This document shows, in pieces, positions 44,047 through 45,853 of a stretch of DNA of 64,000 bases. Position 1 is the first letter of the stretch; each line of letters begins with the position of its first letter. The position numbers and the translations under genes are program-made. The stretch comes from Streptomyces tuirus (GTDB lineage Bacteria; Actinomycetota; Actinomycetes; Streptomycetales; Streptomycetaceae). The notes beneath the pieces are model-generated. The model saw nothing but the letters and a program-made list of their open reading frames with translations, did not search any database and was not told the origin of the DNA. The stretch is from positions 868,001 to 932,000 of the forward strand of contig JAGTPG010000001.1 of assembly GCA_018195615.1 (NCBI GenBank), written 5' to 3'.

Positions 44047-44161
44047 GTACCGCTCCCCTCGTCGCGCTGCCGCACAATTCCCGCGTAAAAGCGACAACTA
44101 CGAGCAAGCGCGACGAGTTACGGCACAAAGCCGAGCCGAGCGGAGATCACCCGAACCGGTG

Positions 44162-44179
44162 AGGGGCACAACGGCCCCT
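44162..44179 (-). terminator. Weak hairpin after the SRPBCC gene
   Basis: AGGGGC / GCCCCT stem with a 6-nt loop, 22 bases beyond the repaired SRPBCC stop and upstream of the MFS start region. Confidence 0.45.
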
Positions 44180-44201
44180 GGAAGTCAGCTCCTTGAGGGG
44201 G

Positions 44202-44644
44202 CTACTTCTCGACCTCGGCGGCGAGCTTGGCGAGCATCGCGTCGTAGATCCTGCCGAGTCCCTTCGGGCGAAGGTCTTCTCGAAGAAGCCGCCGATACCG
44301 CCGGCGCCCGTCCAGGTGGTGGTCACGACGACCCGGGACCCGCCCTCACCGGCCGGGGTGACCCGCCAGGTGGTGACCATGGAGGAGTTGCGGTCCTTCT
44401 CGACCAGCTCGCCGTCGGTGGGCTCACTGACCTCCAGGAGGCAGTCGCGGACGCGCTTGCTGGTGGCCTGGAGCTTCCAGTGGACGAGGGTGCCCTCTCC
44501 GTCACCGCCCTCCCGGACCTCGTACTCGCTGAACTGCTCGGGCAGCAGTTTCGCGCGCGTGCCGCTGTAGTCGGCGAGGGCGTCGAACACCGTCTCCGCG
44601 TCCGCCGCGACGATCCGCTCCGTAGTGGCCTCGACCTGCGCCAT
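44202..44644 (-). CDS. SRPBCC-family protein (one frame break)
   Basis: Ligand-binding START-like fold: TTERIVAADAETVFDALADY at the N-terminus, then LPEQFSEYEVREGGDGEGTL, VHWKLQATSKRVRDC and SRVVVTTTWTGAGGIGGFFE. The frame breaks at GGG 44266-44268; adding one base gives PKGLGRIYDAMLAKL and a TAG at 44202-44204, for 147 aa, the normal length. ATG at 44644 follows GGAGGAAAGCG. Divergent from the radical-SAM gene, so it could share the LexA-type box region. Confidence 0.82.
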
Positions 44645-44768: not shown

Positions 44769-44780
44769 GAACATCTGTTC
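44769..44780 (+). promoter_or_regulatory. LexA-type SOS box
   Basis: GAACATCTGTTC, a GAAC-N4-GTTC palindrome matching the core of the actinobacterial/Bacillus-type LexA box, 32 bp upstream of the radical-SAM start. TATTCT (44781-44786) immediately downstream could be a -10 element, so LexA binding would block it. Confidence 0.7.
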
Positions 44781-44812
44781 TATTCTGTGGGCAGTGCTAC
44801 CGAGGAGGCGTC

Positions 44813-45853
44813 ATGCGCTGGGAGAACCTCACAGTGGACTCCGAACACGGCCGGGCCGACGCCGCGCTGTTCGGCGCCGACGCGGTGACCACTCGTACGT
44901 TCGACACGCCCGAGTTCCGCGGGATCACCTTCCACGAGATCCGGGCCCGGTCGATCATCAACCGGGTGCCGGGGGCCTCGCGCATGCCCTTCGAGTGGAC
45001 CGTCAACCCCTACCGGGGCTGCTCGCACGCGTGCGTGTACTGCTTCGCGCGCAAGACGCACAGCTATCTCGACCTCGACACGGGCCTCGGCTTCGACTCC
45101 CAGATCGTGGTGAAGACCAACGCGCCCGAGCTGCTGCGCCGGCAGCTCGGCTCGCCCCGCTGGCAGGGCGAGCACATCGCGATGGGCACGAACGTCGACT
45201 GCTACCAGCGCGCCGAGGGCCGCTACCGGCTGATGCCGGGCATCATCTCGGCCCTCCGCGACCACGCCAATCCCTTCTCGATCCTGACCAAGGGCACCCT
45301 GATCCTGCGTGACCTGGACCTGATCAGGCAGGCGGCGGAGGTGACCGACGTGGGTATCTCCGTGTCGGTCGGCTTCACCGACGCCGAGCTGTGGCGGACC
45401 GTGGAGCCGGGCACGCCCGCCCCGGAGCGGCGTCTGGAGGTCGTACGGACCTTCGGCGAGCACGGCATCGGCTGCGGTGTGCTGATGGCGCCGGTGATCC
45501 CGTTCCTGAGCGACCGTCCGGACCAACTGCGTGCCACCGTACGGGCGATCGCGGCCTCCGGTGCCACGTCCGTCACCCCGCTGGTGCTGCATCTGCGGCC
45601 GGGCGCCCGCGAGTGGTTCATGAGCTGGCTGGAGCGGCACCATCCGTACCTGGTCCCCCGCTACCGGCGCCTGTACGCGGGGGGCTCCTACGCCCCGAAG
45701 TGGTACCAGCGCCGGATCACCCGTCAGGTGCACGAACTGGCCGAGGAGTACGGCATCGGGCCCAGGCGCGCGGAGACGCCGCGGCGGATCCGGCCCCCGG
45801 AGGACCCGGCGGAGCCGCCGGTGCCGGGGCCGACGCAACTCTCGCTCCTTTAG
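44813..45853 (+). CDS. Rv2578c-family radical-SAM protein
   Basis: A 346-aa radical-SAM enzyme related to spore photoproduct lyase-like proteins and Mycobacterium Rv2578c. The iron-sulfur motif CSHACVYC (Cys70-X3-Cys74-X2-Cys77) follows WTVNPYRG; then HIAMGTNVDCYQRAEGRYRL, FSILTKGTLILRD, VSVSVGFTD-like ISVSVGFTDAELW and GCGVLMAPVIPFLSD. Its C-terminus is Pro/Arg-rich. ATG at 44813 follows GAGGAGGCGTC. The upstream LexA-type box agrees with reported LexA control of Rv2578c in Mycobacterium, suggesting a DNA-damage role. Its reaction is not known. Confidence 0.93.
   Translation: MRWENLTVDSEHGRADAALFGADAVTTRTFDTPEFRGITFHEIRARSIINRVPGASRMPFEWTVNPYRGCSHACVYCFARKTHSYLDLDTGLGFDSQIVVKTNAPELLRRQLGSPRWQGEHIAMGTNVDCYQRAEGRYRLMPGIISALRDHANPFSILTKGTLILRDLDLIRQAAEVTDVGISVSVGFTDAELWRTVEPGTPAPERRLEVVRTFGEHGIGCGVLMAPVIPFLSDRPDQLRATVRAIAASGATSVTPLVLHLRPGAREWFMSWLERHHPYLVPRYRRLYAGGSYAPKWYQRRITRQVHELAEEYGIGPRRAETPRRIRPPEDPAEPPVPGPTQLSLL

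Follow-up and report, generated by a model that had tools for sequence, protein, structure and literature searches.

The gene at 44813..45853 on the plus strand of the Streptomyces tuirus window, by which we mean the whole 64,000-nucleotide stretch of DNA that was analysed, is best read as coding for an SOS-induced radical-SAM enzyme that docks on the sliding clamp and acts on DNA lesions. We give this reading a probability of roughly two in three; the docking and the substrate are the parts of it that we infer. That the gene is repressed by LexA and derepressed by DNA damage is strongly supported and, in our judgement, close to certain. The features on which the argument turns are the following.

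44769..44780, no strand assigned: LexA-type operator GAACATCTGTTC, with an exact palindromic core that is conserved upstream of orthologues
44781..44786, plus strand: TATTCT, a −10-like element abutting the operator, its role as −10 presumed; GTTCTATT is conserved to at least 94% per column
44804..44808, plus strand: GGAGG, the likely ribosome-binding site, from the sequence
44813..45853, plus strand: Rv2578c-family radical-SAM gene, 346 codons and stop (NF038135, 535 bits, cut-off 430)
45020..45043, plus strand: CSHACVYC, [4Fe-4S] cluster motif, residues 70-77, its three cysteines present in 339/339 aligned rows
45044..45046, plus strand: Phe78, at the place of the spore photoproduct lyase relay tyrosine in the alignment
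45767..45835, plus strand: linker, residues 319-341, predicted to be disordered and unconserved by column
45836..45850, plus strand: QLSLL, clamp-binding-like C-terminal pentapeptide, residues 342-346, with QLxLh at the very end in 126/127 genus proteins

The preliminary description of this DNA had placed a GAAC-N4-GTTC palindrome with an adjoining TATTCT 32 bp before the ATG, and these positions are correct: the palindrome has all 8/8 palindromic core bases and lies 32 nt from the ATG at 44813. The bare palindrome is not beyond chance, since GAACn4GTTC is expected 0.61 times in the window (one copy is observed, and at least one appears in 50 of 100 shuffles) and the 9.01-Mb genome has 97 copies of it; the argument for LexA thus rests on conservation. 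The extended form GAACn4GTTCTATT, with one mismatch allowed, has its sole genomic occurrence at the radical-SAM gene, and an extended promoter common to other genes of the genome was rejected on this single match. A sigma-70 scan returned no promoter with a standard spacer, so that TATTCT is a putative −10 element. The lexA and recA genes of the same genome carry LexA-type boxes with 7/8 core bases. A paralogue (G000:C1:1357621-1358433) has a palindrome beyond its gene end, within another ORF, which we took as chance. The divergent gene, which starts at 44644, is the counterpart of the SRPBCC neighbour in PMC12924846; this SRPBCC gene (44150-44644, minus strand) has a frame change near its 3' end relative to four relatives, perhaps an assembly error in a genome rated 85% complete.

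Conservation was examined in upstream DNA from 127 of the 131 Streptomyces-genus genomes with a protein above the family cut-off (150 genomes searched, the window's own included; G008, G073, G102 and G135 were left out), scanned from -150 to +30 and compared with 8133 other 180-nt windows from all fetched loci. All eight core bases GAAC/GTTC are present at 114 of these loci and seven at the remaining 13, whereas the control windows hold a perfect core in 9/8133 cases and at least seven bases in 329/8133; conservation before the same gene is far beyond chance. With the 127 loci aligned on the box, conservation is 94% or higher in every column of GTTCTATT, whereas the columns 50-110 bases upstream average 41%. 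The gap between box and ATG ranges from 27 to 127 nt among the 114 perfect boxes (an earlier count on nearly the same set), so that the block is conserved in its own right, not because the leader as a whole is frozen.

The box extends beyond the genus. Among 40 + 21 + 46 outside loci, a non-random sample from the listed matches in which many fall below the family cut-off and from which 3/49 phylum loci were dropped for too short an upstream region, the core is perfect in 87/107 and has at least seven bases in 102/107, the exceptions being L162, L165, L270, L272 and L282. A further group, class61 (22 loci, 11 from the same genus and 11 from other genomes), was excluded from these counts and has 18/22 perfect boxes and 22/22 with at least seven core bases. 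The named loci (the top 80 among 591, some of them also in the genus set) give 66/80 and 78/80 respectively, L244 and L245 being the two that have no good box. The box was looked for and found absent at copies of the family or its relatives that sit on plasmids in Tsukamurella and Arthrobacter, and GAACn4GTTC precedes 0/11 of the low-scoring actinobacterial relatives (L302-L312). Many of the boxes outside the genus are the full TCGAACn4GTTCGA, and the consensus there, which includes class61, a group that is itself half Streptomyces, reads tcGAACat.tGTTCga. The outer bases in Streptomyces are GG...TA as opposed to TC...GA, so that the affinity for LexA may differ in this genus. Box conservation upstream of orthologues had been proposed earlier as a check on the operator, together with the suggestion that the link between this radical-SAM family and the SOS response is conserved across actinobacteria; the counts, with boxes in the genus set and in relatives outside it, bear out both.

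A chance palindrome, or the site of some other repressor with the gene outside LexA control in this organism, would sit comfortably with the expected frequency of the bare palindrome and with outer bases that depart from the LexA consensus. We nevertheless regard it as very improbable, given a core of at least 7/8 bases at 127/127 genus loci, full LexA boxes in many relatives, and an S. venezuelae orthologue that is enriched in LexA ChIP and induced by mitomycin C (PMC9380542). The connection between LexA and these radical-SAM genes is already known, both at family level and for that orthologue, and the earlier proposal of a LexA-type box at this promoter is upheld by the published binding and induction as well as by the conservation described above. 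Table 1 of Stratton et al. 2022 (PMC9380542) has vnz_31145 ('Radical SAM protein') as a member of the S. venezuelae LexA regulon, with a 19.97-fold increase upon mitomycin C treatment, a LexA ChIP fold change of 1.31 and a box printed as TCGACCGTTCGCTC at -61. That LexA controls SplB-like or radical-SAM genes, whether by prediction or by experiment, is likewise reported in studies on alpha-/beta-Proteobacteria (PMC3323433), on Bacteroidetes (PMC8565304) and on Gram-positives including M. tuberculosis, and Balneolaeota (PMC7739468), the last of which counts 'a radical SAM protein' within the Gram-positive core SOS regulon. An unnamed 'DNA repair photolyase' appears among RecA-dependent genes (PMC8151990). 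For the statement of the preliminary description that Rv2578c itself belongs to the M. tuberculosis LexA regulon, the literature searched gave no paper in which the locus name and LexA occur together.

The box printed for S. venezuelae deserves comment. In locus L107 (genome G015), the Rv2578c-family gene is preceded by those 14 printed bases in reverse-complement orientation, from -38 to -25; the conserved palindrome, here GAACAGGTGTTC, occupies -56 to -45, close to the printed position of -61. The gene has 343 codons, as does SVEN_6313 by its printed coordinates (1032 bp), although the coordinates differ by ~1 kb; from the box letters and the gene length, we have treated L107 as coming from S. 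venezuelae or a closely related strain. The S. venezuelae gene (vnz_31145 / SVEN_6313) would then be a direct orthologue of the gene studied here, with the block GGGAACn4GTTCTATTCT upstream of both, but its printed box is another stretch just downstream of the conserved palindrome. With up to two mismatches allowed, the printed letters are found at 2/127 genus loci, as against the palindrome (at least 7/8 core bases) at every one of them, which makes the palindrome the likelier operator; it is probably this conserved palindrome, and not the printed letters, that LexA recognizes in S. venezuelae.

The product (346 aa) is an Rv2578c-like protein, as had been proposed: its score against NF038135 ('Rv2578c family radical SAM protein'; intein form NF038136) exceeds the cut-off along the model, which has 317 positions and ends before the linker and clamp-type tail, the match stopping at residue 315. 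It reaches 238.4 bits against NF033668, below the cut-off of 360, and is thus not a member of the PA0069 family. An alignment of 339 rows was made without the low-scoring relatives, from proteins that measured 300-430 aa once inteins had been taken out, and with related rows left unthinned; its only invariant cysteines are C70, C74 and C77, with C130 found in 227 rows and C221 in 287. We rejected C130 as a catalytic cysteine, this position being Pro in 103/339 rows. An AlphaFold2 model built from 22 of our own sequences has a mean pLDDT of 76, and structure comparison with it ranks spore photoproduct lyase (SPL) entries first (Z 15.3-15.6 over 265-271 residues, rmsd 3.9-4.2), followed by lipoyl synthase as the next fold family (Z 13.7); Foldseek gives TM-scores to SPL of no more than about 0.5. 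A sequence search of solved structures gave no match at E 0.01, and at E 10 it retrieved SPL entries at E 0.024-0.12 along with one unrelated designed protein at 0.027. Distant matches were present in 9 phage records.

The protein resembles SplB in having SPL as its closest solved fold, in its CxxxCxxC motif and in a short aligned ePGT region; it differs in having no fourth catalytic cysteine, in having Phe for the relay tyrosine, and in its SOS-type operator and clamp-type tail. SPL requires a fourth cysteine as H donor, C141 in B. subtilis, according to PMC3742179, and its relay tyrosine follows the third cluster cysteine (Y99 Bs, Y98 Gt), where 338/339 rows of the present family have Phe. 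On these two tested features, the fourth cysteine and the relay tyrosine, the product falls outside SPL as far as its sequence can tell. With both the Cys and the Tyr absent by which SPL gives the hydrogen atom back and restores SAM, the enzyme is probably no spore photoproduct lyase: either SAM would be consumed or the lesion would be another one. A true SPL, retained so that Streptomyces spores and exposed cells can cope with UV damage, would explain why SPL is the closest solved fold and why some strains annotate the gene as splB (PMC12924846), but we hold this to be improbable in view of the missing fourth cysteine, the Phe at the relay position, the induction by mitomycin C, and the presence of gene and box in other actinobacterial families and classes.

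We favour instead, and think likely, a radical-SAM enzyme with a [4Fe-4S] cluster and an SPL-like fold whose target is a DNA lesion, and which may resemble SPL in opening that lesion by hydrogen abstraction; the literature yielded no established reaction for the Rv2578c family. Most of the matched radical-SAM folds (lipoyl synthase, NifB, MiaB, viperin) do not belong to DNA enzymes, as would be expected if the SOS substrate were RNA, a protein or a metabolite, but SOS control in several phyla, a DNA-repair enzyme as the closest fold and the clamp-type tail make a substrate other than DNA unlikely.

The tail bears on where this DNA-lesion enzyme might work. Residues 319-346 have a pLDDT <50 and are predicted to be disordered. 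At positions -8 to -30 of the genus proteins the commonest residue accounts for only 19-48%, and the last five positions are Q 99%, L 99%, T/S 97%, L 98% and L/I/M 99%. By patterns written after the data had been seen, a clamp-type end is present in 126/127 genus proteins, in 89/110 outside the genus (29/40, 15/21, 45/49) and in 20/22 of class61; control C-termini, which come from mechanical ORFs of at least 200 codons in related loci and represent neither all genes nor independent ones, show the pentapeptide in 0/777 cases and the hexapeptide type in 2/777. An earlier, stricter count gave 124/127 for the genus and 1/390 for controls. Among the 21/110 outside-genus proteins that have no clamp-type end, 11 keep an xLF-like end that lacks the Q, and one of the 80 named proteins has no stop codon in the fetched DNA. 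Relatives carry variants such as QLSLF, QLRLF, QPTLF and QATLF, or the longer QLSLDL, QMSLDLG and QLALPGF, some of these motifs lying inside the tail. The low-scoring relatives L302-L312, which have no GAACn4GTTC box, possess a clamp-type tail in 10/11 cases, so that the tail is broader in distribution than this operator.

The consensus for clamp binding is QL[S/D]LF or QxxLF, with QLSLPL as a tight E. coli form and QLSLF as the C-terminus of B. subtilis PolC, and changes at the fifth position weaken binding to the E. coli clamp (PMC12309361). QLSLL fits this consensus at Q1, L2 and L4 and has L for F5; Streptomyces tails end in L or I. The QL[ST]L[LI] tail resembles sliding-clamp-binding motifs, a resemblance that is new here: a clamp tail on this radical-SAM family was not found in the literature searched, subscription journals being mostly outside its reach. 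That the tail is no clamp motif but a C-degron, a dimer contact or a partner-specific hook is possible, though we find it doubtful. Such a role would suit a fifth residue that is L/I in Streptomyces and not F, and a hydrophobic peptide at the extreme C-terminus could act as a degron by which an SOS enzyme is cleared; against this, the QLSLF, QLRLF, QPTLF and QLSLDL of relatives fit the clamp consensus or the QLSLPL type (PMC12309361), and the motifs that sit inside the tail are not at the very end of the protein. Docking of the flexible, QLSLL-ended linker in the cleft of the DnaN sliding clamp thus remains our preferred interpretation, and we consider it reasonably probable.

Proteobacterial relatives were sampled as 11 PA0069-type records from a plasmid collection, two of which were checked against NF033668. 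Their C-termini are of the QxxLh type in 9/11 (QLSLF, QLSLL, QYSLF, QLRLF, QLTMF, QLRLL); the Sphingomonas protein ends in GPQGELF and the A. thermophilum frame is unreadable to its end. A clade-type LexA box precedes 10/11 of the genes: GTTCn7GTTC lies at most 700 nt upstream in 9/10 alphaproteobacterial records, where arithmetic predicts this motif in about 1% of random 700-nt stretches, and CTGTn8ACAG is found in the single gammaproteobacterial record. The PA0069-type relatives mostly pair clamp-type tails with LexA boxes of their own. The PA0069 family (NF033668), or SOS-regulated 'splB' of alpha-/beta-Proteobacteria as described in PMC3323433, is like the family studied here in its related core, LexA boxes and QLSLF-type C-termini, but its LexA operator differs from the actinobacterial one and the cut-off sets it apart as a separate family. 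Among distant SplB-like proteins of Paenibacillus, Priestia, Nostoc and Runella, the tail was seen in 0/4 and any of four scanned box patterns in 0/4. Two plasmid loci have suggestive surroundings: in Sphingomonas parapaucimobilis (L386), a PA0069-type gene with two GTTCn7GTTC upstream has an annotated dnaE slightly downstream on the other strand, and in Runella slithyformis pRUNSL02 (L392), a plasmid typed as conjugative, the SplB-like radical-SAM gene overlaps a UvrD-helicase-domain gene by a few bases.

The gene is also a target for insertions. Positions 44902-44913 of the window, CGACACGCCCGA, match the att core of phage Samy in reverse complement with a single mismatch. The published attB target gene of Samy (SCO6481, SAM40697_5543; PMC12924846) belongs to the same family and has the same neighbours in that account, namely the divergent SRPBCC gene, an MFS gene and a secreted peptidase. 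The match inside the gene identifies it as the Samy attB target, which means that Samy vectors, which integrate into it (PMC12924846), disrupt an SOS gene, and loss of an SOS-induced enzyme is probable in strains built with them. The main text of that study, which contains neither 'SOS' nor 'LexA', reports that disruption of the gene had no significant fitness effect and calls a role in DNA repair speculative. We rejected the idea of an SOS promoter driving the prophage integrase: the Samy integrase gene points away from the att core, and this core is matched by the antisense strand of the radical-SAM gene, so that an integrated integrase should adjoin the 3' half. Certain genomes of the genus Streptomyces have the radical-SAM gene broken around codons 68-77, at what appears to be a second integration site in the Fe-S cysteine codons, with the parts 28.7 kb apart in G149 (L143/L144), about 8 kb apart in G068 (L145) and on two contigs in G146. 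The G149 5' fragment retains its LexA box, and a serine-recombinase-like ORF (recognized by eye, L144) converges on it. The L245 protein lacks its first 68 residues.

An intein-like insert is present in every one of the 28 proteins of >430 aa (e.g. L162, L163, L165, L253, L316, L330), always between Y76 and C77. Inserted at HN|CFAR, it would have as its +1 splice cysteine the third cluster ligand, so that no cluster could be bound before splicing; the insert is possibly a checkpoint.

In the model that we propose, a LexA dimer bound to GAACATCTGTTC at the core promoter would silence the gene in the undamaged cell, and RecA-stimulated self-cleavage of LexA would free the promoter upon DNA damage. 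The SPL-fold core of the enzyme would then cleave SAM and attack the lesion without the SPL relay, which is missing from its sequence. Once docked on DnaN, the enzyme would find itself at stalled forks or on newly synthesized DNA. ImuB, a mycobacterial SOS protein that needs its clamp motif for damage foci (PMC10421592), is directed in a comparable way and offers a precedent for combining SOS control with clamp binding. We see an even chance that SOS-regulated SplB-like enzymes in general, those of the Rv2578c family in Actinobacteria and of the PA0069 family in Proteobacteria, are clients of the sliding clamp whose tails direct them to damaged forks, where the lesion would be reversed or resolved. 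Radical-SAM genes are a repeated finding in SOS regulons, in Actinobacteria as well as in Proteobacteria and Bacteroidetes. The operator tells when the enzyme is needed, the clamp-type tail where it is probably working, and the missing SPL relay sets it apart from a plain SPL; if this model is true, these enzymes would form a clamp-docked, direct-reversal branch of the SOS response.
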